Positions 10,201 through 24,660 of a stretch of 24,660 bases of DNA are shown in pieces; position 1 is the first letter of the stretch; the number at the start of each line of letters is the position of its first letter. The position numbers and the translations under genes are program-made. The DNA lies in the IMG/VR virus record IMGVR_UViG_3300017752_000154, positions 1-24,660 of that record, one strand, 5' to 3'. The notes under the pieces were generated by a model. The model had not been told where the DNA came from and did not search any database. It saw only the letters and a program-made list of their open reading frames with translations. The stretch comes from a virus.

Positions 10201-10533
10201 AGAATTTTGTTCAACGTATGCTGAATCAACAAAGACACGATCAACGTCCTGTCCCATCACAAAAGCAACGTAGTTAGAATCGATTATAGATTTAAGATCG
10301 GAAGAATCAAGAGCAAGCGAAAGTGACCGGCCGGTAGAATCAAAAACTTTGTTAATACCGTGACCAGCAATTAAATCACCTGCTTGGAAAAGATTAGTGC
10401 TTGCGTCATTTATTAGTATTTGACCAGCAGCCCTCGATTGCGCAGATACAACACCGGATGCTGCCTGATTGACACTTGCAATAGGGCGCCCAATCGATAT
10501 ACGTTTTACGTATGTCCGTCTAGTGCTGGCCAT
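7240..10533 (-). CDS. Giant Asp-Ser-rich tail fiber or virion appendage protein (1097 residues)
   Basis: The largest gene of the window, encoding a repetitive beta-structured protein typical of phage fibers. By hand count it contains about 40 Asp-Ser dipeptides spread along its whole length. Modules include [20 protein letters not shown] near residue 140, [13 protein letters not shown] near 250, [11 protein letters not shown] near 275, a duplicated block TYGS..LIPV..TVN to TADGGSFV, five copies of a unit like TNISGTxLNYG, and [12 protein letters not shown] near 525. The C-terminal quarter has a different texture and may be the tip. AAGGA stands six bases before the ATG, nine bases after the Ig-like gene. 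A role in host attachment is inferred. No enzymatic domain or S74 chaperone is recognisable. Confidence 0.87.
8369..9366 (-). repeat. Five dispersed copies of a short NISGTxLNYG coding repeat
   Basis: Within the giant fiber gene, a unit of about 33 bases coding for a peptide like [11 protein letters not shown] appears near 8369-8400, 8430-8460, 9062-9095, 9182-9215 and 9331-9366. The copies differ at third codon positions, so the protein repeat is conserved more than the DNA. It probably forms one turn of a repeated beta fold along the fiber shaft. Confidence 0.7.
8474..8660 (-). repeat. Copy 2 of an internal duplication of about 190 bases in the giant fiber gene
   Basis: It codes for a block running from [17 protein letters not shown] through [18 protein letters not shown] to TTINGFD. 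The same order of residues occurs in copy 1 at about 9391-9582, with roughly three quarters of positions alike by eye. This points to an internal duplication or to swapping of modules between fiber genes. Confidence 0.7.
9391..9582 (-). repeat. Copy 1 of the internal duplication in the giant fiber gene
   Basis: It codes for a block from [17 protein letters not shown] through [18 protein letters not shown] to ATVNGFN, the upstream partner of the block at about 8474-8660. Confidence 0.7.
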
Positions 10534-10542
10534 ATTCGATCC

Positions 10543-10893
10543 TTATGTTACAGATGGCGTAACCTGGATCCGGCCTTCAAGAATTCTTTCTGTAATTGTA
10601 GTCGAGCTACTATCGACAAAAGAAAGTTCTACATCATATACATACCGGCCTTTGTTTAACGCCGAGGTTTGAGTGCTAGTGAGGCTGAGGTTAACAACTC
10701 CGGAAGTAGATGGAGTTGAAACGATAGAAGTGAAGTTGGTTGCTTCCCCAGAACTATCGCTATAACTTTTCTTCATTGAAGCTGTTACGGTATGGCCAAC
10801 CAAGTCTTTTTTCGCGCCTGTGTGATCTACGAGCTCTAGCTCAATAGCCACATCGCTGCCTTGGTCAATTGTGAATTCTTCGTACTCAGCCAT
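10543..10893 (-). CDS. Small beta-rich Ig-like structural protein
   Basis: A 116-residue acidic protein with no transmembrane segment or signal peptide. The pattern of alternating hydrophobic residues (DVAIELELVD, HTVTASMKKS, GVVNLSLT, GRYVYDVELSFVD, EGRIQVTP) predicts a single beta-sandwich, similar in texture to the N-terminal domain of BppU-type baseplate proteins. It is the first gene of the fiber transcript, preceded by a late promoter and by GGAG six bases before the ATG, and followed nine bases later by the giant fiber gene. I infer a virion role, perhaps as an adaptor or decoration for the fiber. The exact family is not certain. Confidence 0.8.
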   Translation of the reverse strand: MAEYEEFTIDQGSDVAIELELVDHTGAKKDLVGHTVTASMKKSYSDSSGEATNFTSIVSTPSTSGVVNLSLTSTQTSALNKGRYVYDVELSFVDSSSTTITERILEGRIQVTPSVT

Positions 10894-10945: not shown

Positions 10946-10953
10946 TATTTATA
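10946..10953 (-). promoter_or_regulatory. Late promoter for the Ig-like and giant fiber genes
   Basis: An exact TATAAATA on the minus strand, overlapping the last codons of the radical SAM gene that ends the accessory cassette and lying 53 bases before the ATG of the Ig-like gene. It marks the border between the cassette and the structural module. Confidence 0.75.
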
Positions 10954-12049
10954 CAATTTTCTTCTTTGGGATCTTAGAATCTGCAGAAGAAACACATGTT
11001 TTTGTGATACACGGCATTGGTTTATCGAATAATTTAAACCCAGATTGAATATAACCAAGTGGCTCATCATTACACGAGTAAGATCTTTTTATAGATCCGT
11101 CCGGTTCTCTGATTATAATAGATCTATATCCGGATTCACAATTCCAACCTTCAAATTTATTAAACTCGAATGTGTTGAACCGTTCAGCTTGATCCATATA
11201 ATATTTTTGTCCTTTTGAATCTTCAAGTTCAACTTGCATATGTTGTGGAACACCAGTTGTTTCATAACGAAGATCTAATTCGACGTTCGGTCTCGGTCTG
11301 GTAATTTGTTTTTTGATGTCGGTAAATCCTCTTTGAGGCATGCCGTTACGTAATTTTTCAAGCATTGATTCAGTATATCCATCAACAATAAAACTGGCAG
11401 TAGGATCAGACTGAGGTTTAAGAGTAACATTGATACCTCTTTCGTGGAAATATAGTGCGTCTTCCCAACACTGCTCAAATTTGTCTGGTAGCATCACTTG
11501 GTTAATAGTTACTTGGATGTCTTGTGATTGGCAGTATTCAAGCTTGTCAGCGAACTCTGCAACTTTTTCTTGGGTATTAACATGTTCTCTATGGCATGAA
11601 GCTGTGATACTTGATCGATTAAACCGCGAACATATTTTAGCATATTCTTCAAACCACTTCATCTTACGAGAAATATTAGAAGTCATATGGACTGAATGAT
11701 AGTTACAGTTAGGAACATCATCAGCAAGGTATTCCATAATTTCTAAATATTGTGGATGGAACGTAGGTTCACCGCCACTAAAACTAAAATGAAAAGAATT
11801 ATATTCATTCTTGCGAGATTGTCTTTTAATCTCGTCAATTGTCATAAGAATCAAATCAATTGGCCTATGGTCTTTTTCACGACTTGATGCGTATGGCCAA
11901 CAATATGAACAAGAATAATTACAGAATCGACCGAGCAACCAACTCACTGTAAACAAGTCACGATACATCATCGTGCGTTGGCCGACACTTACAATATCAT
12001 TAAAAGGTATTTTTGTGAAGTCGTATTGACTCCATTTCAAATCATTCAT
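10949..12049 (-). CDS. Radical SAM protein, canonical type (last gene of the cassette)
   Basis: Radical SAM enzymes use a [4Fe-4S] cluster to cleave S-adenosylmethionine and start radical reactions. The CxxxCxxC motif is RFCNYSCSYC at about residues 41-50, and the SAM-binding GGE motif is FSFSGGEPTFHP near 88-99. The C-terminal quarter holds four further cysteines (NCESG, YSCND, PMPCITKTC), which could bind an auxiliary cluster as in SPASM or twitch proteins. The substrate is unknown. I chose the ATG at 12049, two codons inside a TTG start, because it forms an ATGAATGA overlap with the stop of the upstream SGNH gene. At 366 residues it is full length. It differs clearly from the three tandem radical SAM proteins at 18,051-21,029. 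Confidence 0.9.
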   Translation of the reverse strand: MNDLKWSQYDFTKIPFNDIVSVGQRTMMYRDLFTVSWLLGRFCNYSCSYCWPYASSREKDHRPIDLILMTIDEIKRQSRKNEYNSFHFSFSGGEPTFHPQYLEIMEYLADDVPNCNYHSVHMTSNISRKMKWFEEYAKICSRFNRSSITASCHREHVNTQEKVAEFADKLEYCQSQDIQVTINQVMLPDKFEQCWEDALYFHERGINVTLKPQSDPTASFIVDGYTESMLEKLRNGMPQRGFTDIKKQITRPRPNVELDLRYETTGVPQHMQVELEDSKGQKYYMDQAERFNTFEFNKFEGWNCESGYRSIIIREPDGSIKRSYSCNDEPLGYIQSGFKLFDKPMPCITKTCVSSADSKIPKKKIV

Positions 12050-12869
12050 AGACAAAACTCGGTTCTGATGTAGATCTTTCTTCGTATAGTTCTATATATT
12101 TGTTTACAAAACTGTTAGCAATTAACATATGCCCTTGTGTATTTGGGTGTTTTTCTTGTGGTGTAATGTAATATTTTTCGTAGAGATCAAAACAACTAGA
12201 ACCCGGTTCAAAGAAATTTGGATGTCCTACGATATTTTTAAATTTTTGAATCTTCTGATAATATTGATTGTTTTGGCAAGCATCAAAGACTTGTTTTCTC
12301 AATTGAAAATTGATTTGCTTTTTCAATAACCATTCAATGCCAGCAAGAGTATGAAGAGCACGGTGATGAAGAATAGGAATATCTCTTGTTTTACAGTAGT
12401 GATCAAGCATGTAAATATTTCGAAGAGAAACATTCGCAATTTTTGTCCAGAATTCTTCCTTTGTTAATTGAAGATGCATCGGAGCATCCTGATCATAAAC
12501 GTGTAACCAAAAAAGATCTCTAAATCTTTCTTGAATATCTTCTTTGAGCGGACCAATAGGCGGTACCAACATTGGAGTATGAACACCAAATGTAAATTGA
12601 CCGATCGGTAAATCAAATGGCACCATTCGGATTGCCTGCGACCAAAGAGCCATAACGACAATATCACGATTTTTGTTTTCTTCGATAGCATCTAATGTCT
12701 GACCGTAAATATAATCGTTTCCAGCTCCACCTTCTGATACGTTAATTAAATCCATGTCAAGAAATTCTGCTACCATTTCAGGCCAGATCTTATCGATCCC
12801 AGCAACGTGATAGCATTCTTCGTTCGGATTAGACCAACTACATCCGCCAACAATTAATAGTTTGCGCAT
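12042..12869 (-). CDS. SGNH-hydrolase-like protein F (fifth of the tandem array)
   Basis: A 275-residue member of the SGNH/GDSL fold family, which includes esterases, lipases and O-acyl transferases or deacetylases acting on glycans. The N-terminal nucleophile motif is VGGCSWSNPN with Ser11, block III is GGAGNDYI with Asn51, and block V is HPNTQGH with His241. The usual catalytic Asp three residues before that His is Gln here (QEKH), with Glu two before. The shared signature NRDIVVMALWSQ lies near residue 68. No signal peptide is visible, so it would act in the cytoplasm or on the virion. It starts inside the preceding gene (16-base overlap, AAGGA ten bases upstream) and ends in FVYE, whose codons contain the next start. 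Confidence 0.85.
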   Translation of the reverse strand: MRKLLIVGGCSWSNPNEECYHVAGIDKIWPEMVAEFLDMDLINVSEGGAGNDYIYGQTLDAIEENKNRDIVVMALWSQAIRMVPFDLPIGQFTFGVHTPMLVPPIGPLKEDIQERFRDLFWLHVYDQDAPMHLQLTKEEFWTKIANVSLRNIYMLDHYCKTRDIPILHHRALHTLAGIEWLLKKQINFQLRKQVFDACQNNQYYQKIQKFKNIVGHPNFFEPGSSCFDLYEKYYITPQEKHPNTQGHMLIANSFVNKYIELYEERSTSEPSFVYE

Positions 12870-13741
12870 TTTATAAATTCCTTAGCAATTATTTCATGAC
12901 CAGTTTGAGTTGGATGGTTACATTCCATCACATGACCGTGCTTACTCAAAGCCCAGATTAATCCTTCTTCCCAATCACTTAATTCAAAATCTAACTTTTC
13001 TTTACAAACACTATTCAATCTATTTAGCCTTTTTATATTGAGTGTTTTTTGCTTTAGATCATGATCTTGAATCCAAGGAGAAAACATTCCTGGAATGCTA
13101 CGAGTCACTGAAAGCCCAGACTTAAATATACTACGAATACCTAAGCTGTCAAGAAAAAGTTTTAATCTTCTCATAGATCTGAGATTGAAGTGTAAAATCT
13201 TTTCATCAAGATGATACACATCATCGGTATCTTGAAATTTGAATTTAAGTATTTGTTCTAGTATATACGTATGTTTAGTCTGTAAATCATATGGCTGATT
13301 ATAATCTGCAGACTTTGGCAAATATTCTCTTGTTTCAATCCATTTATTATAGCTTAAATTATTATTTTCAATAAAAAGAATATCTTCCCACTTTTCAATA
13401 TCCATTCCCGGAAAATTTGTTAGAAATTTAGAAGTCTGAAATTCGTTGAATTGTCTTTTGTCGTTTGTAAATATAATATTAAAAAGATCAAACGGTGATT
13501 GCCTGATCGATTGAGACCATAAAACCATCACGACAATATCTCTGTCTTGATTCTCTACAACAGCGTCATAAACTCTATTCTCTATTGACTCATTAGAACG
13601 TCCCATTTGAGCAACGTTTAGCAAGTCCCAATCCATTTTGTCCGCGACAGAATGTGGCCATGAAAAAATGTTGTTCTTTACGTTTTCTGTATACGTAGAA
13701 TCTGTATTACTGTCTCCGCCTACAATAAGGAGTTTACGCAT
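12854..13741 (-). CDS. SGNH-hydrolase-like protein E (fourth of the tandem array)
   Basis: A 295-residue paralog with block I VGGDSNTDS (Ser11, true GDS form), block III QMGRSNESI (Asn50) and block V ECNHPTQTGH (His276, with Glu in place of the usual Asp). The family signature QDRDIVVMVLWSQ lies near residue 64. Its first nine residues, MRKLLIVGG, are identical to those of protein F, and its start lies in a closely similar sequence within the upstream gene (TGCGTAAACTCC against TGCGCAAACTAT), a trace of tandem duplication that copied the junction too. It overlaps the upstream gene by 22 bases. The central third is long, Lys-rich and diverged, and may set substrate choice. Confidence 0.85.
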   Translation of the reverse strand: MRKLLIVGGDSNTDSTYTENVKNNIFSWPHSVADKMDWDLLNVAQMGRSNESIENRVYDAVVENQDRDIVVMVLWSQSIRQSPFDLFNIIFTNDKRQFNEFQTSKFLTNFPGMDIEKWEDILFIENNNLSYNKWIETREYLPKSADYNQPYDLQTKHTYILEQILKFKFQDTDDVYHLDEKILHFNLRSMRRLKLFLDSLGIRSIFKSGLSVTRSIPGMFSPWIQDHDLKQKTLNIKRLNRLNSVCKEKLDFELSDWEEGLIWALSKHGHVMECNHPTQTGHEIIAKEFIKCANY

Positions 13742-14637
13742 TCGATAAACTCATCAGCTATAAGGTTCTGTCCTTTTTGATTAGGGTGACCGCAGTCAAG
13801 TAAATATCCTTGTTCTCTCTTATTAAAATCGCACCAACCATTTTGCCAATCTTTGCGAGACATTCCCATTTCTTTAATACGTGGATGTTTACTACAATGC
13901 CGTTGAAGACCTTCTTTTCTTCTCATCATCATTGCTTTTTCTTTAATGTCTAATGGATCATCTTTCCAATGAGGATACGACCAAGGCATAGTTTCTGTCA
14001 TTGATAAACTATACTTATGAACGGTTGGTATTTTTAGTGAATCGAGAAAACCTTTTAGACGAACCATAGATCTGAGACTGAAGTCTACCATCTGTGCATC
14101 GACTTCTAACATCCTGTCGTCGTTATATGCTAATGACAATAAATGTCTTTTCATAATATCTTGAATTAGATACATGTATTTGAGATGTTGGTCAAATGGT
14201 TCTTTTGCCCAATTGTTTGGAAAGTAACTTCTGTCTTTCAACCAAGCTAAAAAGCTCCAATCATCAAGCTGGTCAAATCTTCGACAAAATTCAACATGAT
14301 CGATTTCTGGATACTTCTTTTCAACACCAGACCAAAGAGTATATCTGTCTCGTGTACCGTGTAATTGATAATGATCTAGATCCCACCATGTGCCTCTACA
14401 CGGTTCTGTCCAGAACATCATTACAACAATGTCTCTATCTTGATTCTCTAAAACAGCGTCATACACAGAATTTTCAATACTATCATTAGATGAACCAGCA
14501 ATTCCAAGATTTAATAGATCCCAGTCCATATCTTGTGCTACAATTGTTGGCCAAACGATAATTGACTTTTCAGTATAGGCCCAATATTTCTGCGTAGTAT
14601 TACTACATCCGCCAGTGATAAGAAGTTTTTTAGTCAT
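13720..14637 (-). CDS. SGNH-hydrolase-like protein D (third of the tandem array)
   Basis: A 305-residue paralog, the longest of the set. Block I is TGGCSNTT (Ser12), block III GIAGSSNDSI (Asn51) and block V LDCGHPNQKGQ (His284). This is the only one of the six with the classical DxxH spacing of the SGNH triad, so it is the best candidate for an active hydrolase or transferase by the standard mechanism. The signature QDRDIVVMMFWTE lies near residue 67. The middle is rich in Trp and Met (SYPHWKDD, MMMRRKEG). Its ATG overlaps the upstream stop in ATGACTAA. Confidence 0.85.
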   Translation of the reverse strand: MTKKLLITGGCSNTTQKYWAYTEKSIIVWPTIVAQDMDWDLLNLGIAGSSNDSIENSVYDAVLENQDRDIVVMMFWTEPCRGTWWDLDHYQLHGTRDRYTLWSGVEKKYPEIDHVEFCRRFDQLDDWSFLAWLKDRSYFPNNWAKEPFDQHLKYMYLIQDIMKRHLLSLAYNDDRMLEVDAQMVDFSLRSMVRLKGFLDSLKIPTVHKYSLSMTETMPWSYPHWKDDPLDIKEKAMMMRRKEGLQRHCSKHPRIKEMGMSRKDWQNGWCDFNKREQGYLLDCGHPNQKGQNLIADEFIECVNSLL

Positions 14638-15391
14638 AGATGAATACCGGTGGTTCGTGTGCTTTTAAATACTTTCCTAGAAAAGCATCAGCAATGATTT
14701 CGTGTCCTGCCTGATTTGGGTGTCGACACTCTAAAAATATTCCGGTGTCTAGAAAAGATTGAGGATCAGTTTCTCTTGGATGCTGCGGTAAACCTTCTTC
14801 AAGTTCTTTCATAGTGATACCAGAATTCTGAAAGTAAAAATCTTTTAAAATGTTTTTTCTCAGCATTCCATAGTGAATAGCTCGTTTTTCTCTGTCTCCA
14901 CCATCAGCTATCTGCATGATTTGATAGAGGCTGCTAATACCTATCTTTGCAAAAAACTCAAAGCCTAGATCCTCAACAAATTTCTTAGTTCTCCACATGA
15001 TTCTAAATTGATTTCTTGCTATCATAATATCTTTTTCACTCATAGTCATACCCACATGTGGATTCATATTTTCAGATGGAGGCTTAGGAATTGTATCAAG
15101 AACTCTGCTATTTGTTGATACCCATTTTGTACAAAAATCATATAGATTAATTCTAGAAAACTCTGACCAAAGCACCATGACAATTGGATCTCGATCTTGA
15201 TTTTCCATCACTGCATCGATAACCGCATTTGAAATATAGTCTTGTCCTGCTCCACCTCTGCCAACATTTAAAATATCAAATCCTACTCCATCAGCAATAA
15301 TATTCGGCCAAGGAAGGATATTTTTTTCTAAATAGAACGTTGGTTCTGTAAAGCTGCATCCTGCAGTGATAAGAAGTCTTTTGCTATCCAT
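14630..15391 (-). CDS. SGNH-hydrolase-like protein C (second of the tandem array)
   Basis: A 253-residue paralog, the shortest. Block I is TAGCSFTEP (Ser13). Block III reads GGAGQDYI, with Gln50 where the SGNH Asn normally completes the oxyanion hole, and block V is ECRHPNQAGH (His224, Glu instead of Asp). These changes suggest altered or weak catalysis, or a binding role. The start at 15391 is preceded by AGAGGG with good spacing, inside the block V codons of the upstream paralog, giving a 64-base overlap, the longest in the window. It ends in VFIYD, whose codons supply the next start. Confidence 0.85.
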   Translation of the reverse strand: MDSKRLLITAGCSFTEPTFYLEKNILPWPNIIADGVGFDILNVGRGGAGQDYISNAVIDAVMENQDRDPIVMVLWSEFSRINLYDFCTKWVSTNSRVLDTIPKPPSENMNPHVGMTMSEKDIMIARNQFRIMWRTKKFVEDLGFEFFAKIGISSLYQIMQIADGGDREKRAIHYGMLRKNILKDFYFQNSGITMKELEEGLPQHPRETDPQSFLDTGIFLECRHPNQAGHEIIADAFLGKYLKAHEPPVFIYD

Positions 15392-16155
15392 TCATGCCCT
15401 CTTTGATTTGGATGGCCATCAACAGGTTCTCCATTCGTTCCATCGTTAATCCACATCTGTGGCATATTACCAATTTTAAATCCATTACGCCAATCACGAT
15501 AATCAATGTACCATCTACTCTTCGGTACTGCTTGAAGAAGTTTATGCTGCCTCTCGAGCTGATTCATTTTTATTTCTAGATCGGTGTATTGGCCTTCATA
15601 ATGATACATGCCGGTGTACGTGATAGAATTAACTAATGAATATGCTTGTCTATGATATATAGGTATTCTTAACGTCCTACAAAGATGATCAATAGTCCAT
15701 ATAGATCTTAAATTATGATTTAAGGTTTTTTCATCAATATAAAACCAATCATCACTATATGGCCAAACAGCATCTTCAAACGATGCATCGGCTTCTCCCG
15801 GAACAGGTCCATCAGGTCCGGGTTCTAATTTTCGTTTTTCATGATATGCTAGCGTTTCTCTTTGATGCCATAACGTACCGACGTCGAATAGATTGCACCT
15901 ATCACCGGATGTCCACAAGATCATAACTACAATATCACGATCTTTATTATCCATCACAGCATCCATTAAGGCACCGCTGATATAGTCATTTCCCATGCCT
16001 TTTTTAGCAACATTTATTAAATCACAGTTTAATTGACTAGCTACGAGTTCTGGCCACGTCTTGATATTACGGCTTTTATAAACACTATAGTTGCTATCTG
16101 AGTGGCTACATCCGCCGGTAATTAAAAGACGTTTACGTTGTATTTTTTCATCCAT
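15328..16155 (-). CDS. SGNH-hydrolase-like protein B (first of the tandem array)
   Basis: A 275-residue paralog with block I TGGCSHSDSN (Ser17), block III KKGMGNDYI (Asn56) and block V VDGHPNQRGH (His248, with Asp two rather than three residues before it). The signature KDRDIVVMILWTS lies near residue 72. I chose ATG 16155 (MDEKIQRKRL) over a TTG at 16173. Either start overlaps the carbamoyltransferase gene, by 34 bases for the ATG. The ribosome binding site is not clear-cut, so translation may depend on coupling to the upstream gene. Its neighbour suggests a shared substrate that is carbamoylated and O-acylated, but that is inference. Confidence 0.85.
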   Translation of the reverse strand: MDEKIQRKRLLITGGCSHSDSNYSVYKSRNIKTWPELVASQLNCDLINVAKKGMGNDYISGALMDAVMDNKDRDIVVMILWTSGDRCNLFDVGTLWHQRETLAYHEKRKLEPGPDGPVPGEADASFEDAVWPYSDDWFYIDEKTLNHNLRSIWTIDHLCRTLRIPIYHRQAYSLVNSITYTGMYHYEGQYTDLEIKMNQLERQHKLLQAVPKSRWYIDYRDWRNGFKIGNMPQMWINDGTNGEPVDGHPNQRGHEWIAKDFLSLQDAALQNQRSI

Positions 16156-17444
16156 TCTTCTGCGTGTTCCCAACTATCAACCATTGGTTCTCCTTTAATA
16201 TTGAGACTTGTATTCAATAACATCGGACAACCAGTAATATCAGTAAATTCTTCAAGGATCTTTCGAATCTGAGATCCATAAGTCTTTTGTCTGACTATTT
16301 GTACTCTTGCCGTCCCATCCACATGAGTGACGGACTTATAATCATGTTTAGCTTTTGCCACAAATTGCATGTATTCATTCATTGGTCCTTCAAAAAACTG
16401 CTCGGCACATTCTTCCAAGATGGCCGGTGCAAAGGGTCTAAATTTTTGTCTTCTTTTGATTTCGTTGACCGTGTCTTTAACATCGCGACGGGGGTCAGCA
16501 AGAAGGCTACGATTACCAAGGGCGCGAGGGCCAAACTCAGCACGACCGTTAGCCACGCCACACACACCGTGCTCAGCAATATATCGAGCAATCTCACGAG
16601 GATTAATTTCATTTTCGATATTAGTTCCAAGATAAGGTCCCTCCCAATCTAATTTATCTTCGTAAAAAGCAGCTACTGCTCCAAGAGATGAACCGGCATA
16701 TCCGGGATTTGGCATGATCCATATATTCTTTCCTTCGATTCTAGAATTGGCTACACAATTCAAAGCGCAGCCACCCATCAGTACTAGATTTTCGTGATGG
16801 CAATACTCTTTAACAAGATTCAATAATTGCTTTTCATAGAATACTTGAATTGATGCAGCAATATCTTCTGGTCTTCCGTTAGGCAGTTCAATTCCTTTAT
16901 GACAATTGGTATCCATAAGATAGTCGAAGTCATATAGTGGTTCGCCATAGGCAGCTAAACCCATGACAATATATTCTTCTTCCATAGGCTTATAACCAAG
17001 AGCAGCAGTCACGGCAGAATACGCTAGACCAATACTTTTTGGGTATTTCATTTCCCATGTTTTGGTCAACACTCGATCTCGCATAGTGTATGCAGCGCCA
17101 GTCTCCATTTCACCAATAGCATCGACACAAAGAATATCACAGTCTTCAAATGAAGAAGTAGACCAGCCAGCCCATGCATGAGTGTCGTAGTGGTTATAGT
17201 CAGTATCTGTTTCGATATTTTCTTGTTGATGTTCTTGACCAGCAATTGCGTTTCGACTACGAACACGATACTTATTCTCGTGTCCTACAACAATGTCAGC
17301 TTCTGGAAGAAGATCTTTGTTTAACCACTTATCATTTTTTACTCGAGTATGTCTCTCAACATGATGAGCTTCTACAATTGTAGCTGCTTCAACCAATGTC
17401 CATGCTGCGTCGTGTGAACCTTCACTAATACCTAAAATCCGCAT
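16122..17444 (-). CDS. Carbamoyltransferase of the NodU/CmcH/TobZ family
   Basis: Family members transfer a carbamoyl group from carbamoyl phosphate, through carbamoyl-AMP, to a hydroxyl of a sugar or antibiotic. The product has 440 residues. The N-terminal half carries GISEGSHDAA near residue 5, the His-rich YNHYDTHAWAG near 83 and LMGGCALNCVAN near 222. The C-terminal half carries FGPRALGNRSLLADPR near 304, KFRPFAPAIL near 334 and LLNTSLNIKGEP near 409, all hallmarks of the family. Characterised members have about 550-600 residues, so this is a compact form. It starts within the end of the upstream glycosyltransferase-like gene (13-base overlap). The likely acceptor is a sugar made by the same cassette. 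Confidence 0.93.
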   Translation of the reverse strand: MRILGISEGSHDAAWTLVEAATIVEAHHVERHTRVKNDKWLNKDLLPEADIVVGHENKYRVRSRNAIAGQEHQQENIETDTDYNHYDTHAWAGWSTSSFEDCDILCVDAIGEMETGAAYTMRDRVLTKTWEMKYPKSIGLAYSAVTAALGYKPMEEEYIVMGLAAYGEPLYDFDYLMDTNCHKGIELPNGRPEDIAASIQVFYEKQLLNLVKEYCHHENLVLMGGCALNCVANSRIEGKNIWIMPNPGYAGSSLGAVAAFYEDKLDWEGPYLGTNIENEINPREIARYIAEHGVCGVANGRAEFGPRALGNRSLLADPRRDVKDTVNEIKRRQKFRPFAPAILEECAEQFFEGPMNEYMQFVAKAKHDYKSVTHVDGTARVQIVRQKTYGSQIRKILEEFTDITGCPMLLNTSLNIKGEPMVDSWEHAEEWMKKYNVNVF

Positions 17445-18079
17445 AGTCTGTCATCCCAATGTTTTTTATCAAAAGCAAGCCGAGCTTCTGTTACAGCGCC
17501 ATAGTGTATAAAGTACGCCGGTTGTTTCCAGTCATGATACTCTTCACCGTTTCGATTCCATTCCCATTTGAGTCCAGTCACACCAATATCGTATTCCATC
17601 CAACAACTCTGAATAAAATGTTCGTCATGCCACATTAAATCTCTTTTTGTGTTTAACTGAAGAAGTTCGTTTAACATAGGTTGGACTAACTCAATAGTTT
17701 GTTTATCCCATAAAACAACACCACCGTTTATTCGTGACATTAAACCTAAATGTTTTGGCGAACCTCTAAGAGCAAGCTGTGAATGCCGATATTCATTAAA
17801 TATATCTATCTCTGTATCTGGTGGAATAATTATGTCTGTGTCAAGAGCTAAGACTTTGTCATATCCTGTTTCCATAAGACATTGAAGCTTTTCAGAATGT
17901 ACACTTGGTAAATGGTTAAATTTTCTATTTGAGACAAACTTATAATCAGCACCTATTCGTTGAGCATAATTTGAAACAGTACGAATAGAATACGGAACAA
18001 TCTGCACCCCGAGTGTATCTCGTTCATCACCATGAAACAAAGGCTGTTCTTTAAAGAATTGAAAAATTAACTTTTTCAT
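17432..18079 (-). CDS. GT-A-fold glycosyltransferase-like protein (GT8-type)
   Basis: A 215-residue protein with features of nucleotide-sugar transferases: the N-terminal strand KKLIFQFFKE, the helix VPYSIRTVSNYAQRIGADYK, and a DxD metal-binding motif in VLALDTDIIIPP near residue 80. These are followed by RINGGVVLWDKQTIE near 120 and a terminal WEWNRNGEEYH and YFIHYGA, as in GT8-like enzymes where a late His helps bind metal. It is a paralog of the gene at 21,002-21,754. I chose the ATG at 18079 because GAAGAG lies seven bases before it; a GTG at 18094 would add five residues. It overlaps the radical SAM gene upstream by 29 bases. Sugar donor and acceptor are unknown. Confidence 0.82.
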   Translation of the reverse strand: MKKLIFQFFKEQPLFHGDERDTLGVQIVPYSIRTVSNYAQRIGADYKFVSNRKFNHLPSVHSEKLQCLMETGYDKVLALDTDIIIPPDTEIDIFNEYRHSQLALRGSPKHLGLMSRINGGVVLWDKQTIELVQPMLNELLQLNTKRDLMWHDEHFIQSCWMEYDIGVTGLKWEWNRNGEEYHDWKQPAYFIHYGAVTEARLAFDKKHWDDRLCGF

Positions 18080-18995
18080 TATCGTACTCTTCACATTTCT
18101 TGCAAGCTTCTAGAGGTTCATCGAATAATTCAGCAAAGAAACTACTTTGAAGAATGTTGTCGTATTCATCTGAATGCAAATTATTTTCAAGCTTTAACAT
18201 GCTTAATTCTTCAAACATTTTTGTATCTTTTTGAGTGGCTATCGAAGGCATGTAACAACATTGCCATATATTACCCCACGCATCAAGTTGAGCTCGTCTT
18301 TTATTTCTCCAACGACACGGGTGGTTATCTTCGTAGTCTTCAGGATATTCTAGACTTCTTGAACTCCAATTATACGATTCATCGAGCGGAATTCTTTTTG
18401 CAACGCTTTCTGAAAAGTTTTTATATTTCTTTTGATATATTTCTTCGTTGTATGATTCAACCATTACGAATGATTCGAATCCAATATCGCGAGCTAATTG
18501 ACTTGCAGTTTCAATTTCATGCTTATTGTGTTCGAACATAATATACTTCCATCTGGCTCTTCCTCCAGCTTGAATAAATGCTTCTGCATTATCTAAAACT
18601 TTTTCAGTGTCGACTCCACGTCTGTATAAATGATTTGTGGATAGACCATCGATTGCGAAGCTAACTCTTGCTGTGAATTTACTGAGTGTTTTAGCCAGCA
18701 GCTGCCACCATCCTTTATTTCTTGTGCCACCATTGGTTGAAATATCAATGACAACGTGCTCAGGAATAGAATCAATAAATTGAATACCATCAGGGTGCAT
18801 TGTAAAATCGCCATAAGCTCCATTAAAATATACTACTTCAATATCACTAAAGTTTATTTTTCTGAAGATGTTAAGTGGAAGATGTACTAGATCAACACAC
18901 GTTTCTCCTCCATCAATATTTCGTATACATCCACCACAATGGCTATTACAATACGTAGTAATATCAGCTTGTAATTGAGCTACTTTCATGTCCAT
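18051..18995 (-). CDS. Radical SAM/SPASM-like protein, third of the tandem trio (divergent)
   Basis: The 314-residue product has its radical SAM cluster motif at CNSHCGGC (Cys16, 20, 23). The place of the usual GGE motif is taken by FNGAYGDF near residue 57, aligned with GNxGDP in the two neighbouring paralogs. Other shared landmarks are STNGGTR near 86, FAIDGL near 113, YRRGV and FEHNKHEIE near 154. The C-terminal region has PCRWRN (Cys227), WGNIWQCCYMP (Cys246, 247) and ACKKC (Cys298, 301), consistent with an auxiliary iron-sulfur cluster. It overlaps the upstream paralog by ten bases; an ATG two codons later would reduce that to ATGA. Substrate unknown. Confidence 0.9.
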   Translation of the reverse strand: MDMKVAQLQADITTYCNSHCGGCIRNIDGGETCVDLVHLPLNIFRKINFSDIEVVYFNGAYGDFTMHPDGIQFIDSIPEHVVIDISTNGGTRNKGWWQLLAKTLSKFTARVSFAIDGLSTNHLYRRGVDTEKVLDNAEAFIQAGGRARWKYIMFEHNKHEIETASQLARDIGFESFVMVESYNEEIYQKKYKNFSESVAKRIPLDESYNWSSRSLEYPEDYEDNHPCRWRNKRRAQLDAWGNIWQCCYMPSIATQKDTKMFEELSMLKLENNLHSDEYDNILQSSFFAELFDEPLEACKKCEEYDNEKVNFSIL

Positions 18996-20050
18996 TGCGC
19001 TAAGAAGGGATCAAATCCTACATTACATTTTGTTCCACACGTTTTCATTCGCCCTTGACCAACACCATGAATATCCCAACTATTCTTAACTGTTGCAAAG
19101 AAGTCACCTTCCATAATGTTTTCAAGTGGAGTATAGTGAACGTTAATCTTTTCAAAACCTCCAGTTGACATAATCACTTTATATTCTTGTGAGTCTTCAA
19201 CTGGTCTCCACCATTTATAGACTTGGCCAGCTAACCAGCAACATGGAAAGACTAAACCTTCAGCCGAAACATAGATCTCATTTTTCTGCATACACTTAGG
19301 TTTGATCTCAGCAACATCAATAAAGTTGTCCATTGAACCAAACTTTTCTACGATCTTATCATAGTCCTCGTCAATAGCTTTATTTCTATATTTTGGATTC
19401 TTTGGAGGAGATAATCGCATAGAGTCTTGGCCACGAAAAACAGCTTGATGATCATCTTTCTTTTGTAGATTAGCTGTGTTAATGTATCGGCCTGACTTTT
19501 TAACTATAAAGTCTTTTACACCAATAATCTTAGAAAACATACGAGCTTGTTCAATTTGGTGTTCGTTATAGTTGAATACAAGAAATGTCCATTTAGCATG
19601 ACCACCAGCATCACAGAAGGCAGACATGTTTTCTTCAACATGATCCCACTTTACACCTTGGCGATAGAAGTGATTTGTATCTTGTAAGCCATCAACCGAA
19701 AAGTTGACAAAGTCTACAATAGGGGCTAGTCGTTCCCACCATTCAGGTTTACGAGCACCACCATTAGTAGTAACAAACATATGAATATCAGGACTACACT
19801 CACGTACATACTCCGCTATCTCTAACATTTCTGGAGCAAAGATTGGATCACCATGATTACCGCAGAAATAAAATGTTTCAAGTTGTGCCAAGAACTCTGG
19901 TGAAAAGGCTTTCTGAAAACCTTCCAAAGTCATTGACTCGTCTTTTAAATGTTGATTGACTTCTCCGCCATTCTTATTCCTATCACACATAGGACAAGAA
20001 GCCTGACACATTTGAGTTGGTTCGAAGTGTATCATTTTCACGTTATACAT
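18986..20050 (-). CDS. Radical SAM/SPASM-like protein, second of the tandem trio
   Basis: The 354-residue product has EPTQMCQASCPMCDR near the N-terminus (cluster Cys15, 19, 22), FYFCGNHGDPIFAPE near residue 60 in place of the GGE motif, TTNGGARKPEWW near 94 and VNFSVDGLQDTN near 115. Its C-terminal part has KCMQKNEIYV (Cys253), VFPCCW (Cys270, 271) and CGTKC (Cys338, 342), a layout like the SPASM auxiliary-cluster domain of peptide-modifying enzymes. It aligns with the next gene upstream with almost no gaps over the first 160 residues, so the two are recent duplicates. The start overlaps the upstream stop in ATGTATAA. What it modifies is unknown. Confidence 0.92.
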   Translation of the reverse strand: MYNVKMIHFEPTQMCQASCPMCDRNKNGGEVNQHLKDESMTLEGFQKAFSPEFLAQLETFYFCGNHGDPIFAPEMLEIAEYVRECSPDIHMFVTTNGGARKPEWWERLAPIVDFVNFSVDGLQDTNHFYRQGVKWDHVEENMSAFCDAGGHAKWTFLVFNYNEHQIEQARMFSKIIGVKDFIVKKSGRYINTANLQKKDDHQAVFRGQDSMRLSPPKNPKYRNKAIDEDYDKIVEKFGSMDNFIDVAEIKPKCMQKNEIYVSAEGLVFPCCWLAGQVYKWWRPVEDSQEYKVIMSTGGFEKINVHYTPLENIMEGDFFATVKNSWDIHGVGQGRMKTCGTKCNVGFDPFLAQWT

Positions 20051-21029
20051 ATTGCAGTTTTACCGTATCTTGTTTCATATTACATTTAGCCGAACAAACA
20101 AACGGCTTATCATCAGTATCCCATCGTTCAAAAATATTTTCAAACCATTCTACAGCTTTATTTATTCCGACTTCTTTAGCATTATTCTCTACAACTAAAG
20201 ATCGGATATCCAACCTTTCTTCCAAAGAAATATTTTGACTCGATACAGCCGACGTATGAGCCCAGCAACACGGAAAGACGTGTCCTGTAGCAGCCACGTA
20301 AATTTCTCTGTTTTTGACGCATTTCGGAGATATGGCAACATGTTCTCTGTCCTTTAAAGGGTTGTTCACTACTTCACTTTGGTATTTCTCTTGCTTTGGC
20401 GGCTTTAAGACTTCTCGCTGTTTTCCTCGCCAGTAAGTCTGCCATGCTGGTCTTTCTTTGTCATAACGATTCGTGGTTTTTGGACGGAATTCCACAAATC
20501 CAAGTTCTTTTGATAATTGTTCTGCCAATTCGATTTGATGTTCGTTGTGTTCAAAGACCAGATAGTCCCATTTTGCTTTTCCACCGGCATTGATAAACTC
20601 CTTCACATTGTTAATTATATTATACCATATTACGCCTTTTCTGTAAACCCCATTTGTGTCTTCAAGCCCATCTATTGAGAATGTAACATGACTTGTTAGA
20701 TTTGCTAGGTTCTTCCAAAACTCTGGCTTACGAGCTCCACCATTTGTATTCATAGACAGATAGATGTTTGGATTGGCTTCACGAAAATATTCAAAGATCT
20801 CGAGACAGTCAGGTGCTAACATCGGATCGCCGAGGTTACCACACATGTACATTTCATCTAGTTGTTGAATAAATTCTTTTGAAAAGATATTTTTTACATC
20901 TTGAATAGAAAGCGATGTGTTGTTTACACGATGATTCAACTCACCATCAAGCGTTACTCGGTCACACATTGGACACATTGCTTGACAAAGTTGAGTTGGT
21001 TCTAGGTGTACTTTTTTAATACTGTACAT
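20043..21029 (-). CDS. Radical SAM/SPASM-like protein, first of the tandem trio
   Basis: The 328-residue product has EPTQLCQAMCPMCDR with cluster Cys15, 19, 22, MYMCGNLGDPMLAPD near residue 60, NTNGGARKPEFW near 94, FSIDGLEDTN near 117 and FEHNEHQIE near 159. The C-terminal Cys set is KCVKNREIYV (Cys237), VFPCCW (Cys254, 255) and CSAKC (Cys312, 316). The gene after it is the closest relative. It begins 28 bases inside the upstream glycosyltransferase-like gene, without a strong ribosome binding site, so coupling is likely. Enzymes with this Cys layout often modify peptides or alcohol groups on carriers, but nothing here fixes the substrate. Confidence 0.92.
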   Translation of the reverse strand: MYSIKKVHLEPTQLCQAMCPMCDRVTLDGELNHRVNNTSLSIQDVKNIFSKEFIQQLDEMYMCGNLGDPMLAPDCLEIFEYFREANPNIYLSMNTNGGARKPEFWKNLANLTSHVTFSIDGLEDTNGVYRKGVIWYNIINNVKEFINAGGKAKWDYLVFEHNEHQIELAEQLSKELGFVEFRPKTTNRYDKERPAWQTYWRGKQREVLKPPKQEKYQSEVVNNPLKDREHVAISPKCVKNREIYVAATGHVFPCCWAHTSAVSSQNISLEERLDIRSLVVENNAKEVGINKAVEWFENIFERWDTDDKPFVCSAKCNMKQDTVKLQYV

Positions 21030-21754
21030 AGCATTTCATACAATGGTGTATCTTGTGGATCTGTTAAATGATAAAAATAAGCTTCAGGATCTTTCTTTAT
21101 CTCTGTGTCTGGAATGTAATTGAACGGTCTTGGCATCGTTGGATTAAAATCTTCTGGATTCTCAATTAAATATTTTAAAATATGAACCTGATCACTATAG
21201 TGTATTTCATGCGATGTTACCATTTCGTAGTTGTCGTCTCTATTTGAAATAAACCAATCATTTATTTTTTTAGCAGTCTTTTTATCTAACTTTACTACTC
21301 CGGAATTAGTAAACATTATTTTAGATTGCCCAAGAGATTCTTGTATTTTTTTAAGACTTTTTCCATTCAAGAAATGATTATCTGCGCTCATGTTAAGCGC
21401 ATAACAAAAATATCCAGTATTGTCTAGTGGAAATGGATGTTCGTCATTAACAACATATACGTCAGTATCAACTACAATAATATCATCGTATTTTTCTGAA
21501 AGATCTCCTAACCAATATAACCATTCAGAAGTAAAGTCTCTGTCATAGTATGGCTTATCATCTGGTGAGTTCGGATGAGGATCTGTAATTAAACAATAGT
21601 CATAACCATGTTTGTCTGCGTAATCTCTCACAGATTCAATACACGTGTCAATTACAAACTGAGTCTCTATCTTTAACCTAATATCAGGAACTCGAGGATT
21701 TTCTTTTTTATGATCAAACTCGAACTGAAATATAACTGTCTTATTTTTCTCCAT
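21002..21754 (-). CDS. GT-A-fold glycosyltransferase-like protein, paralog of the gene at 17,432
   Basis: The 250-residue product begins MEKNKTVIFQFEFDH, shows IESVRDYADKHGYDYCLITD near residue 40, a DxD motif in DIIVVDTDVYVV near 90, MFTNSGVVKLDKKTAKK near 155, HEIHYSDQVHILKYL near 180 and a final YFYHLTD. The same ordered landmarks (IFQF, DTD, N-G/S-GVV, late His) occur in the shorter gene at 17,432, so both belong to one family of nucleotide-sugar transferases. I chose ATG 21754 because the only earlier start is a GTG deep inside the PP-loop gene; the 14-base overlap is CATGGAGAAAAATAA. Donor and acceptor are unknown. Confidence 0.82.
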   Translation of the reverse strand: MEKNKTVIFQFEFDHKKENPRVPDIRLKIETQFVIDTCIESVRDYADKHGYDYCLITDPHPNSPDDKPYYDRDFTSEWLYWLGDLSEKYDDIIVVDTDVYVVNDEHPFPLDNTGYFCYALNMSADNHFLNGKSLKKIQESLGQSKIMFTNSGVVKLDKKTAKKINDWFISNRDDNYEMVTSHEIHYSDQVHILKYLIENPEDFNPTMPRPFNYIPDTEIKKDPEAYFYHLTDPQDTPLYEMLCTVLKKYT

Positions 21755-22472
21755 GCTTATTAAATGCCCAGTCTCTTTCCATACACCACCAGCATTCTCC
21801 ACACTCTTCTGAGAAACCTTTTGTCATATAATCCCATCCTTCACACGACCGAGTCAATGGAAGCAAGGTATTAGTTAAGTCATGTCTCCAGTATAGCTCT
21901 GCAATATGACCTTTGTGGTGTTGGACAAAAGGACAGCAGTGTAATATATTTCTAGCTTCATCGTCATCAACTTGAGGTTTTGATTCTCTGCATGTCCAAT
22001 CACGATGTTTTTCTCGGCATTCCCAAACTTCTTCACCGAACACGTCCGATGATCCCCAGTGTTTTTGGCCAATCTCTTCAGGTGGATTCGCAGTTACACC
22101 ATTAAAAACTTGAGTATATTCGCCAATTTGTTTTACCGTATCATCAATTAGATTTTCTTGGTAATCGACATAATTGTTCGCATTCTTACTATTTGGTTTA
22201 CCACCCGGATCTAAGCACATCATTGATTGTATAGGAGCAAACCTTACGTTAGCATATTTCCAGTGATCTTGCATCCAGTCATAGACTTGTTGAGCGTGAT
22301 AATTTTGCCAATTACGTACACCATGAACTACCGTAATTGGCCAAACAGTCAAAGGCTTTTTTACCTTAGTCCACTCATCGCAAATCATCCATAAGAGTAA
22401 AGCGCTATCGGCTCCACCTGACAATCTTATTATTACATTTTCTGTTTGTACTGGAATCTTAATCATAGACAT
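21741..22472 (-). CDS. PP-loop ATP pyrophosphatase with a QueC-like cysteine cluster
   Basis: The N-terminal SGGADS (residues 18-23) is the PP-loop that binds ATP in the N-type ATP pyrophosphatase family (QueC, TilS, PAPS reductase, asparagine synthetase). Such enzymes adenylate a carboxyl, carbonyl or sulfate group. The C-terminal pattern RSCEGWDY then ECGECWWCMERDWAF (SC...CGxCxxCxER..AF) closely matches the zinc-binding end of QueC, which makes preQ0 from a carboxylated deazaguanine. The middle does not look like standard QueC, and no other queuosine gene is in the window, so the substrate stays open; amidation of a sugar is an alternative. The ATG at 22472 has GAGAGG seven bases upstream. 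It overlaps the SGNH gene before it by 14 bases. Confidence 0.85.
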   Translation of the reverse strand: MSMIKIPVQTENVIIRLSGGADSALLLWMICDEWTKVKKPLTVWPITVVHGVRNWQNYHAQQVYDWMQDHWKYANVRFAPIQSMMCLDPGGKPNSKNANNYVDYQENLIDDTVKQIGEYTQVFNGVTANPPEEIGQKHWGSSDVFGEEVWECREKHRDWTCRESKPQVDDDEARNILHCCPFVQHHKGHIAELYWRHDLTNTLLPLTRSCEGWDYMTKGFSEECGECWWCMERDWAFNKHGEK

Positions 22473-23334
22473 ATATAGGCCTCTCAAATTTTTTCACGTT
22501 TAATGGTTCTACTTCTCTAGAAATAACAAAATTGTGTATGATATTTCCTAAATGCTCATGACCTTTAGCATTAGGGTGATGATCGTTTTTACTCACCATT
22601 AAATCTTGTTGTTTAACATAGTGGTGAGCATCCCAAGAAAAGCCAATATATTTTTTGCTTTCCAATAGTTTATTATACCATACACTTTCATTCTTAATTC
22701 TTGTAGATCCTTTTTCTATTTCTTTAATTTCAGACTCAAACTCATAAGTATGTTTTGAATGTGACGTCATTGCTCCAATAAAAGTCTCATCTGGCAGCGG
22801 AGTTATACTAGAAAAATGATAAAATTCTATTCCTCTTAAAGCACAATATTCTTCTAGAAGATACATAGTTCGTAGTGTATAATCTACTACTTTAAAGTAG
22901 ATATCAGATAAAGTGGTATCTCTTTCTCTTGACTCATCAATAGATTGAGATATTGTACTAGTAAGTTGTAGAGTTCGACTAAGATATTTTCGCATATCTG
23001 TAACGTTAACACCTTTATCTTTTACTTTCGATTCAAATCTTTGAATGAGCTCTTCTTCGCCTTCCAACATTCCGCTTGTAACATCAAACAAATTAATGCG
23101 TAAAACGTCAGACCAGTTAGCAATGACTACAATATCTCTATCACTGTACTTTTCAATTGCGTCAATTGCTTTATTGAAAATGTAATAATTAGACGCTCCA
23201 CCTTTCCCTAGATTAATGTGATCCCAGTCTGCCAATTCTGCAACATATTCTGGCCAGACCTTAGGAATGAACGAATATAATTTTGGATCAGTAAAACTAT
23301 CACCTACTGCAATAAGTAATTTTTTAGTAGACAT
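22459..23334 (-). CDS. SGNH-hydrolase-like protein A (separate from the tandem array)
   Basis: The sixth SGNH paralog, 291 residues, separated from the others by six genes. Block I is VGDSFTDPK (Ser13, true GDS form), block III GKGGASNYYI (Asn49) and block V NDHHPNAKGH (His253, with Asp two before it). The family signature SDRDIVVIANWSD lies near residue 66, followed by RINLFDV as in protein B. It ends PIYVYD, like proteins C and F. It overlaps the upstream radical SAM gene by 11 bases. No signal peptide or membrane segment is visible. Confidence 0.86.
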   Translation of the reverse strand: MSTKKLLIAVGDSFTDPKLYSFIPKVWPEYVAELADWDHINLGKGGASNYYIFNKAIDAIEKYSDRDIVVIANWSDVLRINLFDVTSGMLEGEEELIQRFESKVKDKGVNVTDMRKYLSRTLQLTSTISQSIDESRERDTTLSDIYFKVVDYTLRTMYLLEEYCALRGIEFYHFSSITPLPDETFIGAMTSHSKHTYEFESEIKEIEKGSTRIKNESVWYNKLLESKKYIGFSWDAHHYVKQQDLMVSKNDHHPNAKGHEHLGNIIHNFVISREVEPLNVKKFERPIYVYD

Positions 23335-24505
23335 AATCGAAAATCTTTGGAGCTAATTCACTCGCATCCCTATTATAAAGTTGATCTTGTAGTTTGACAA
23401 TTTCTTTGAATGTTTCTTCTGGAATTGTTCTCTTGCCTTGAAGTCTCATTTCAAATTCACGAGTAAAATCGTTATAAGATAAGTTTTGTAGAATCTCTTT
23501 CTTTGTGTCTTCTGCTAAGTTCACAATATCAAGTCCTTCAGGCCAATGTACAAAAGTGGTTCTATACTTGACTTCAACTCCATAGTGTCTTTCTAAATCT
23601 TCTTTGAGATGAAATAAATCATTACTAATTTCATTCATATAAAAAGCATGATAAGCTGTGGTAGTACAAACTAAAAGAAGCTTTTCAACTTTGTCTGTTC
23701 TATTCAACATATCATGAATATTTTCTATGACAGTTTCATAGTCACCGCCTTGTCTAAAGTAATTAAATAGATCTCCGGTTCCGTCCATACTGACAGTAAT
23801 ATCAGCTCGGTTGAAGTGTTCCCATAATTTAACAATGTCATAATTCTTAAATTTAGTAATTGACATGTTTGTATTGTAAACAAGAGTGATTTTGCTCGTA
23901 TCAATCTTTGGATCTGCAATCATTCTTTCAAGAAACCGATACATCTCAACATGAAAGAACGGCTCACCACCAGAGAATTCAATACGTTCTACTGTTGGTA
24001 ATACATTTTCAAAGAGATGGTCAATAACTTCAGGTGTTGGAATATCAATCTGATGATCGTGTCTTTCGATCACGTGATCGAAGTGGTGATCATCCCAAAG
24101 CTTCTGCCCTACTTTCGGGTTTTTCTTTCCGACTTTAATAAAGTTAGAGTTAGAAGCAACCGTGCAATGCCGGCATGAATAGTTGCATGCTCTGTTGAGT
24201 TTGAGCTGGAGGTCTCGGACGACGACTTCCGTGTTATTATAATCTGGTTCTGAAACCAGTAGATCTTCGGATCTTTGTCTGTACGATTTGATTCCATTTT
24301 CTTCTTGGATCCTACAATCTATACATTCGGCTGGCCATTCATCATTCATCAATTGTTCGCGTACACGTTTCCACTCTGATGAATTAACATCAGGCATTTC
24401 TGGTACACTACCAAATTGATGTCCATTATGTAGTTTGAATCTATAACACGGGGCATAACCACCGGGTTTAAAATCTAAATGGCTCCAAGCAAGTTTACAT
24501 TTCAT
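23324..24505 (-). CDS. Radical SAM protein with an N-terminal auxiliary-cluster-like (twitch) region
   Basis: The 393-residue product begins with a cysteine region (Cys3, Cys20, and ECIDC Cys61 and 64) in a layout like the first part of a SPASM or twitch auxiliary cluster: CKLAWSHL, GGYAPCYRFK, then a CxxC. Only after that comes the radical SAM core, NRACNYSCRHC with Cys107, 111 and 114, and the canonical FSGGEPFF near residue 177. Usually the auxiliary cluster follows the core, so the order is reversed here. Similar proteins are annotated in cyanophages as twitch-domain radical SAM proteins. Its ATG overlaps the preceding stop as ATGA. The substrate is unknown. Confidence 0.9.
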   Translation of the reverse strand: MKCKLAWSHLDFKPGGYAPCYRFKLHNGHQFGSVPEMPDVNSSEWKRVREQLMNDEWPAECIDCRIQEENGIKSYRQRSEDLLVSEPDYNNTEVVVRDLQLKLNRACNYSCRHCTVASNSNFIKVGKKNPKVGQKLWDDHHFDHVIERHDHQIDIPTPEVIDHLFENVLPTVERIEFSGGEPFFHVEMYRFLERMIADPKIDTSKITLVYNTNMSITKFKNYDIVKLWEHFNRADITVSMDGTGDLFNYFRQGGDYETVIENIHDMLNRTDKVEKLLLVCTTTAYHAFYMNEISNDLFHLKEDLERHYGVEVKYRTTFVHWPEGLDIVNLAEDTKKEILQNLSYNDFTREFEMRLQGKRTIPEETFKEIVKLQDQLYNRDASELAPKIFDYVY

Positions 24506-24660
24506 AGTCGTTCACTGTGTACATAAAATTTATTACTTTTTGTTTGTCCAGATATTTCAACAAATCCATTATCAAATAGACATTCACGTTCTACTGAATC
24601 TTTATTCATAAAATGCTCAATAAAGATAAGTGGTTTTTCTTTTGCTATTATTTTTTCACC
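24502..24660 (-). CDS. C-terminal end of a protein, possibly an FkbM-type methyltransferase (runs off the right edge)
   Basis: An open frame enters from the right edge and ends at TGA, 53 codons later including the stop, overlapping the next start as ATGA. The visible end, with KEKPLIFIEHFM, ECLFDNGFVEISG and SNKFYV, resembles the last part of FkbM-family methyltransferases, where a KPxIxIE strand and a GYxxxxxxxxN segment close the Rossmann fold. Such enzymes O-methylate sugars, which would fit the cassette. With so little sequence the family call is tentative; the coding status is better supported because the tight overlap matches its neighbours. Confidence 0.55.
   Translation of the reverse strand, partial: GEKIIAKEKPLIFIEHFMNKDSVERECLFDNGFVEISGQTKSNKFYVHSERL

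Follow-up and report, generated by a model that had tools for sequence, protein, structure and literature searches.

What is made by a dense run of radical SAM, SGNH-like and carbamoyltransferase genes that lies beside the tail genes of a marine T4-like phage? The question is raised by a block of minus-strand genes in the 24,660 nt of IMG/VR record IMGVR_UViG_3300017752_000154, the whole of which we call the window. An earlier note on this DNA saw in the block one pathway for a surface glycan or glycoconjugate made during infection. We find that the cassette is a richer version of an island already known from related ocean phages, and we give a probability of about 0.5 to its encoding a late, soluble decoration pathway, for a glycan or a glycoprotein, that acts at host recognition.

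Genomic site and known relatives

The window was compared with a 123,332-base IMG/VR contig (L002, also G001) that is incomplete and represents practically the same virus, the window proteins being 99–100% identical there and the block running on the plus strand, and with eight other contigs from close relatives (L003–L010). By its terminase, the nearest named phage is C48C1 (71%), and the nearest named relative is filed under Kyanoviridae. In G001 the cassette is preceded by a split VrlC-like gene (open reading frames, ORFs, at 45543 and 48691, with 32–33% identity to VrlC of phage Mosig) and by short genes, one of which matches a PHROG tail fibre (26.2 bits). It is followed by a fibre-assembly gene, two fibres, neck genes and terminase; the head-tail adaptor Ad2 stands after the fibres, and the head-closure gene, named by synteny with C48C1, is next.

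This is the position of the host recognition cluster (HRC), which the available part of PMC7029224 places between VrlC and the neck genes of pelagimyophages and describes as tail fibres plus enzyme genes. The cassette likewise lies between VrlC and the neck gene gp14, and variable content accompanies the tail fibres, since the slot before the fibre-assembly gene differs among relatives. The cassette site is thus the published HRC, an exchangeable slot between tail-fibre genes. That the block is no part of the T4 core, as had been claimed, is borne out by C48C1, where three unassigned genes (153, 242 and 235 aa) occupy this site and the cassette is absent.

Radical SAM genes are themselves a documented habit of such islands. 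Two related genomes differ at the HRC by radical SAM gene cassettes (PMC7029224, available part), and according to the accessible part of PMC2853527 the Campylobacter phages CP220 and CPt10 carry 11 and 12 radical SAM proteins, a central part of these genes lying in an interchangeable module for which a role in host metabolism at low oxygen was proposed. The many radical SAM genes per phage resemble the cassette; neither a carbamoyl nor a glycosyl term, however, occurs in that part of PMC2853527. An abundance of radical SAM and glycosyltransferase genes in marine phages is described in PMC7150976, as far as its text was available.

The closest cultured parallel is Mosig (EXVC030M, MT647606 60990-71305), whose block is gap-free like that of the window (gaps −4 to −35) and likewise encodes a carbamoyltransferase, a methyltransferase and, at 192.7 bits, an SGNH protein of the same family; three of its genes carry the annotation molybdenum cofactor biosynthesis enzyme, and one of them matches the radical SAM protein rS3. 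Mosig differs in having one SGNH gene found against six, nitroreductase and aminotransferase genes, and another gene order. When searched against named phages, the SGNH protein SG1 matched only Mosig, and the PP-loop protein PP matched none, Mosig included.

Given the published site, the radical SAM habit and the Mosig block, the cassette is therefore assigned to a known kind of island. The view that it is not a described system has to be modified to that extent, the island type and radical SAM cassettes being in print (PMC7029224 and PMC2853527, available parts); the full combination was not found. None of the terms SGNH, GDSL, carbamoyl and QueC occurs in the main text of PMC7029224, as far as it was available, and such genes are present here. 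Searches of the PMC literature returned no paper on radical SAM, carbamoyltransferase and phage together with SGNH or auxiliary metabolic, and nothing useful on phage virion glycosylation or on twitch radical SAM in phages; no product of such phage radical SAM clusters was reported in the literature found.

Gene packing and late-promoter motifs

The features are, in the direction of transcription:

24502..24660, minus strand: FkbM-type methyltransferase, 3' end only, truncated by the window end (PF05050 via the full-length copy)
23324..24505, minus strand: rS5, twitch-type radical SAM (NF033640 222 bits, cut-off 170; PF04055 37.4, cut-off 29.5)
22459..23334, minus strand: SG6, SGNH-variant (alignment A1; Lipase_GDSL_2 18.9 bits, under the cut-off of 32.9)
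21741..22487, minus strand: PP, QueC-like PP-loop ATPase (first ATG 22472; PF06508 24.5 bits, cut-off 22)
21002..21802, minus strand: GTb (first ATG 21754; DxD-like motif by eye only)
20043..21029, minus strand: rS4, radical SAM with C-terminal Cys cluster (PF04055 39.6 bits; invariant Cys of alignment A3)
18986..20050, minus strand: rS3, radical SAM with C-terminal Cys cluster (PF04055 46.9 bits; A3 Cys pattern)
18051..18995, minus strand: rS2, radical SAM with C-terminal Cys cluster (PF04055 32.8 bits; SPASM 17.4, under the cut-off of 21.5)
17432..18094, minus strand: GTa (first ATG 18079; DxD-like motif by eye only)
16122..17444, minus strand: CT, NodU/Nol-like O-carbamoyltransferase (PF16861 166.5, PF02543 120.4, phrog_1601 274.7 bits)
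15328..16173, minus strand: SG5, SGNH-variant, the next gene after CT (first ATG 16155; A1)
14630..15391, minus strand: SG4, SGNH-variant (A1)
13720..14637, minus strand: SG3, SGNH-variant (A1)
12854..13741, minus strand: SG2, SGNH-variant (A1)
12042..12869, minus strand: SG1, SGNH-variant (model pLDDT 93.0; TesA Z 14.2)
10949..12055, minus strand: rS1, radical SAM, the last cassette gene (first ATG 12049; PF04055 54.9 bits)
10946..10953, minus strand: T4-type late-promoter motif TATAAATA, exact, overlapping the rS1 stop codon and opening the tail-fibre unit
10543..10893, minus strand: boundary gene, L-shaped tail fibre assembly-like (phrog_3304 59.6 bits)
7240..10533, minus strand: boundary gene fib2, Asp-Ser-rich large tail fibre, weighed as a possible acceptor
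1177, 1219, 3192, 7230 and 10946, minus strand: exact late-promoter motifs of the window

Fifteen complete minus-strand ORFs, all open, fill positions 10949–24505, and a sixteenth is truncated by the window end. With the longest starts, the 14 junctions among the fifteen overlap by 8–64 bases and the junction with the sixteenth by 4; with first-ATG starts, 15 of 15 junctions still overlap (4–64 bases). The description of the block as fifteen gap-free genes holds for the junctions and not for the count, as sixteen functions had been listed and the methyltransferase is the truncated sixteenth gene. Nor does the block start at the window edge, since it continues on the same strand for about 8 kb in the fuller contig.

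There the ORF map sets the cassette at 52964–79410, with a plus-strand block of 23 genes (57738–79410, 21.7 kb) in which all 22 junctions overlap by at least 4 bases; outside the cassette, 45 of the 110 junctions between neighbours on one strand do so (Mann-Whitney p 4e-6). Mechanical ORF calls of at least 70 aa with longest starts were used inside and outside alike, and small genes missed outside would inflate the gaps there. The block is packed more tightly than is usual for the phage. Its minus-strand part (52964–57736) holds two radical SAM genes (54129 and 55043) and, at 57005–57736, a PHROG glycosyltransferase match (30.8 bits). The relatives are nearly gap-free as well, with one gap of 96 bases in L008 and gaps of 19 and 3 in L009. 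In several genomes rS3 has the same overlaps on its two sides, 8 bases with the preceding gene and 10 with the following one, regardless of which gene that is.

The motif TATAAATA, which we take to be the T4 late consensus, occurs exactly at 20 sites in G001; 12 of these lie 0–60 bp before a gene start, where 0.76 would be expected (binomial p 9e-13). One (57698) stands 32 bp ahead of the first plus-strand block gene and another (79406) lies at the end of the block, overlapping the rS1 stop and leading into the fibre genes. This last-junction motif is present in all nine of L002–L010, while the divergent gap before the first plus-strand gene has the motif in L004 and none in L011. All five exact motifs of the window lie on the coding strand, each 18 to 61 bases upstream of a gene start, and precede the genes for tail sheath and terminase small subunit (both identified from synteny with C48C1), for a fibre and for fibre assembly. 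Mosig has an exact motif 5 bp before its first block gene, closer than expected for that start codon. Late promoters were not found in the pelagimyophages of PMC7029224, according to its available part, whereas here exact motifs stand at gene starts.

Terminator-like sites in the block are not above chance (5 against 6.7 expected, both strands), and sigma-70-like promoters (57 against 51.3 expected) are uninformative. With late motifs on both flanks and the last-junction motif kept, the block would most simply be one late operon. The proposal of a single functional unit is supported by these flanking motifs, by terminator-like sites at chance level, and by the core gene order kept in the eight other contigs.

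Enzyme families

All five radical SAM genes named in the earlier note score above the Pfam cut-off, and the cassette in G001 holds twelve, eleven from the Pfam search of the contig plus rS2 (32.8 bits). In an NCBIfam scan of seven cassette radical SAM proteins, three exceeded the twitch-type cut-off (rS5 and those at G001 57738 and 59159). All 23 aligned sequences of rS2–rS4 and their relatives (alignment A3) have CxxxCxxC plus five additional Cys, and rS1 is 81–91% identical across L003–L010. Three relatives (G002, G004 and G006) have 10 to 12 radical SAM matches within 37–46 kb. Higher numbers, 20 and 17, were seen in two viral contigs of 342 kb (G012 and G013; loci L162 and L190).

None of the six SGNH genes passes the Pfam cut-off; the assignment stands on structure, the fold of SG1 being SGNH and the other five aligning with it. 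The SG1 model superposes on Escherichia coli TesA with Z 14.2 (root-mean-square deviation 3.4, 171 aligned; best Foldseek E 4e-5), with which the variants have the fold and the catalytic Ser and His in common. Among 52 family sequences, Ser11 of block I is kept in 51, Gly48 in 50, Arg81 in 51 and His241 of block V in 51. They differ from SGNH hydrolases at the position of the block III Asn, after strand 3, which is Ser in 38 and Thr in 14 and never Asn, a position inferred from the strands of the SG1 model and not from a residue map to TesA. Trp usually precedes it (45/52), giving the motif W(S/T)xxxR. The acid, too, is mostly found at His−2 (46/52; Asp 39, Glu 7), while SG2–SG4 of the window have Cys at His−2 and an acid at the usual His−3. 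An SGNH family with its block III Asn apparently replaced is a new detail of the island.

The carbamoyltransferase is firm, its N- and C-terminal domains (PF02543 and PF16861, 120.4 and 166.5 bits) lying well above cut-off. What had been listed as a possible methyltransferase is confirmed by the full-length copy (L002:2275-2943), to which the window piece is 100% identical and which matches PF05050, Methyltransf_21/FkbM (43.7 bits, cut-off 22.7). The two genes called glycosyltransferase-like fared worse: GTa and GTb have no Pfam match above cut-off, informative PHROG match or convincing solved relative, the sole PHROG match of GTa being of unknown function (E 0.008) and GTb having neither a PHROG match nor a solved relative; iterated profiles of both found no wider family among the fetched ORFs.

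The PP-loop ATPase was correctly recognised (PF06508 QueC, 24.5 bits against a cut-off of 22). SGGxDS and four Cys are invariant in 10 of 10 sequences of its family; we presume that this four-Cys site has the zinc role of the QueC family. A solved-structure search with PP gave nothing usable. The model of PP (mean pLDDT 78) has its highest Z with QueC (14.9 and 14.1), then with Cap9 and QatC (both 13.8), the others standing at 11.7; Foldseek ranked Cap9 first. PP has the fold and the PP-loop of these proteins and differs from them by an identity of only 14–19% over the model and in that no deazaguanine pathway is seen. A QueC-like PP-loop enzyme is a further new detail of the island; the terms radical SAM, glycosyl and carbamoyl are absent from the available part of a 2026 survey of the QueC family (PMC13329287).

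The presence of QueC-like and radical SAM enzymes led us to consider modification of DNA or nucleotides, of the 7-deazaguanine kind. Beyond the QueC match of PP, an upstream radical SAM protein (G001 60478) matches the QueE model weakly (31.7 bits against a cut-off of 260). QueE was, however, the best match of none of the seven cassette radical SAM proteins scanned, no PTPS/QueD gene was found in the incomplete 123-kb contig by a search that was positive in 9 of 14 control genomes, and late expression would probably come too late for replication precursors, so that we regard this explanation as highly improbable. A separate observation in the fuller contig is a C-5 cytosine DNA methylase gene (L095:9208-10398) adjoining nucleotide-sugar genes.

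Viperin-like or Qat/CBASS-like systems were also considered, and a PADLOC scan of ten of the 28 cassette proteins gave weak matches to pVip and QueC. These reach at most 49.7 bits and look like general radical SAM and QueC superfamily matches; in the ten proteins scanned no other defence family was matched, including the CBASS nucleotidyltransferase, QatA, QatB and QatD. An island for defence or counter-defence is likewise highly improbable.

A third possibility concerns proteins. The nearest structural relatives of PP include the protein-nucleobase ligase Cap9, which conjugates deazaguanine to protein (PMC11996544, available part). The cassette might be a protein-modification factory, in which PP and the twelve radical SAM enzymes, several of twitch/SPASM type, would modify a late phage protein post-translationally; carbamoylation, methylation and SGNH acyl transfer could be further steps, leading to a switchable chemical coat on the fibre. 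We consider this unlikely.

Two strongly conserved cassette genes upstream of the window edge (L092:10613-11515, 301 aa; L002:578-1120, 180 aa) matched neither Pfam nor PHROG, and structure searches with them yielded nothing usable; by eye only, we take the first to resemble a pyridoxal phosphate (PLP) enzyme and the second a 2-oxoglutarate oxygenase (HxD...H). A gene beside PP in L003 (L003:6741-7268) looks sulfotransferase-like, again by eye only.

Gene order and distribution

The core order in L003–L010 is rS5, PP, rS4 and rS3, CT, SGNH, rS1 and fibre assembly, with L007 and L009 ending before rS5 and L004 without rS4. One to five SGNH genes lie between CT and rS1, optional genes are interspersed, and in L007 and L009 CT is separated from SGNH by a gene of 459 or 475 aa. 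The expectation that these families would co-occur in the same order in metagenomic phage contigs is thereby supported for the core, with rS2 moving. L122 and L124 have the same order with SGNH before CT, as in L009, by labels that are merged subfamilies, since rS1, rSb and rSt from iterated profiles combine radical SAM groups and only blastp labels are subfamily-specific.

The pairing of CT with a directly following SGNH gene extends beyond this group: 69 of 80 CT genes show it, as do 35 of the 41 clusters formed at 90% identity, where one member with the pair was enough for the cluster to count. As these loci were collected via CT, the rate is that of CT having an SGNH partner, not the converse. 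In the remaining cases CT is followed by an unassigned ORF (7), another CT (1) or a radical SAM gene (1), or stands at the locus end (2).

Relatives of rS3 were confirmed at at least 532 places in viral contigs. Of 101 loci found with the rS3 profile (80 viral and 21 genomic, flanks 6–8 kb), 10 contain SGNH, 21 contain CT and 26 contain PP; the close relatives L119–L126 account for eight of the SGNH loci and eight of the CT loci. A phage-type radical SAM cluster also lies on L098 (CANEUJ010000032.1), a contig of 13.5 kb that is assigned to a Neisseriaceae genome and may be a mis-binned phage fragment.

Proposed function

In the pathway that we favour, with single steps that we infer from knowledge of the families, the radical SAM enzymes would act on a sugar or side chain by rearrangement, oxidation or some other change, the QueC-like PP would activate a carboxylate at the expense of ATP to give an amide or nitrile, CT would add an O-carbamoyl and the FkbM enzyme an O-methyl group, and the SGNH-variant enzymes, whose copy number varies between genomes, would set or remove acyl groups. 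The product would be a variable decoration used at host recognition, carried by the virion fibres or by the host glycan that the fibres meet. No Kyte-Doolittle window exceeds 1.56 among the 28 cassette ORFs, while 11 other ORFs of G001 exceed 1.6; the cassette enzymes are probably soluble and cytoplasmic and would form one tailoring pathway.

Within the decoration reading, virion fibre and host glycan have about equal odds as the acceptor. The first proposal, a surface glycan made during infection, remains plausible; as the promoter motifs are of the late type and no membrane-type stretch is seen, the phage's own fibre is an equally good acceptor. Given a decoration pathway, editing of the host surface, by which the O-chain or capsule is changed to exclude other phages or to free progeny from debris, is a tentative choice. 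It was the authors' proposal at this same genomic site for pelagimyophage glycosyltransferases, as modification of the surface against co-infection (PMC7029224, available part). It also agrees with the sugar genes elsewhere in G001 (UDP-galactopyranose mutase, a GT25 transferase of the 'LPS biosynthesis' kind, an NAD-dependent epimerase and a UDP-glucose dehydrogenase-like gene). The cassette has, however, no membrane-type stretch, and its late-promoter motifs suit exclusion poorly, though they suit progeny release.

Decoration of the virion, in which the enzymes modify tail fibres or other late proteins of the phage, is to be held just as tentatively under the same premise. In L002–L010 the genes for fibre assembly and fibres come immediately after the late unit, yet the sole acceptor-like signal, in the fibre itself, is as strong where the cassette is missing. 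fib2 has 40 Asp-Ser dipeptides against 10.6 expected and no Asp-Thr against 9.9, and in seven aligned fibres the Asp-Ser pairs are kept better than other Asp or Ser. Among ORFs of at least 150 aa with at least 8 Asp-Ser in loci L001–L081 and L098–L198, only such fibres have z > 2.1. The control compared fibres of >600 aa, taking cassette-less loci with at least 6 kb before the fibre-assembly gene: the median z is 6.9 for 37 fibres without the cassette and 6.0 for 13 with any cassette family, some contigs being near-duplicates. Asp-Ser was therefore rejected as a cassette-specific acceptor motif. The Asp-Ser excess without Asp-Thr is found in many marine T4-like fibres of the fib2 family and is possibly a structural repeat.

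Several observations weigh against one late decoration operon. The promoter motifs were recognised by sequence and not by mapping transcripts. When one mismatch is tolerated, the window shows no excess over shuffles (50 against 53.8), so that the evidence lies in the position of the exact sites. A further exact motif lies inside the block (G001 65115), 66 bp before the methyltransferase, and another inside the PP gene of L009. The order is not fixed: rS2 precedes rS3 in L009 and L010 and follows it in L005 and the window, and L009 has an SGNH gene ahead of CT. Outside the close relatives, SGNH occurs in 2 of 93 and CT in 13 of 93 rS3-found loci, so that the parts also travel separately, and C48C1 has a related CT far from the cassette site. 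No window gene matches as a glycosyltransferase, the one cassette gene of G001 that does being 57005–57736, and no acceptor was found, the fibre Asp-Ser signal having failed its control.

We hold the late, soluble decoration pathway at the even odds stated at the outset. What this group of phages offers is a conserved core order, what would be a late operon, an SGNH family with a seemingly altered active site and a QueC-like enzyme, and a link of part of the gene set to Mosig, a phage in culture with its host Pelagibacter HTCC1062.

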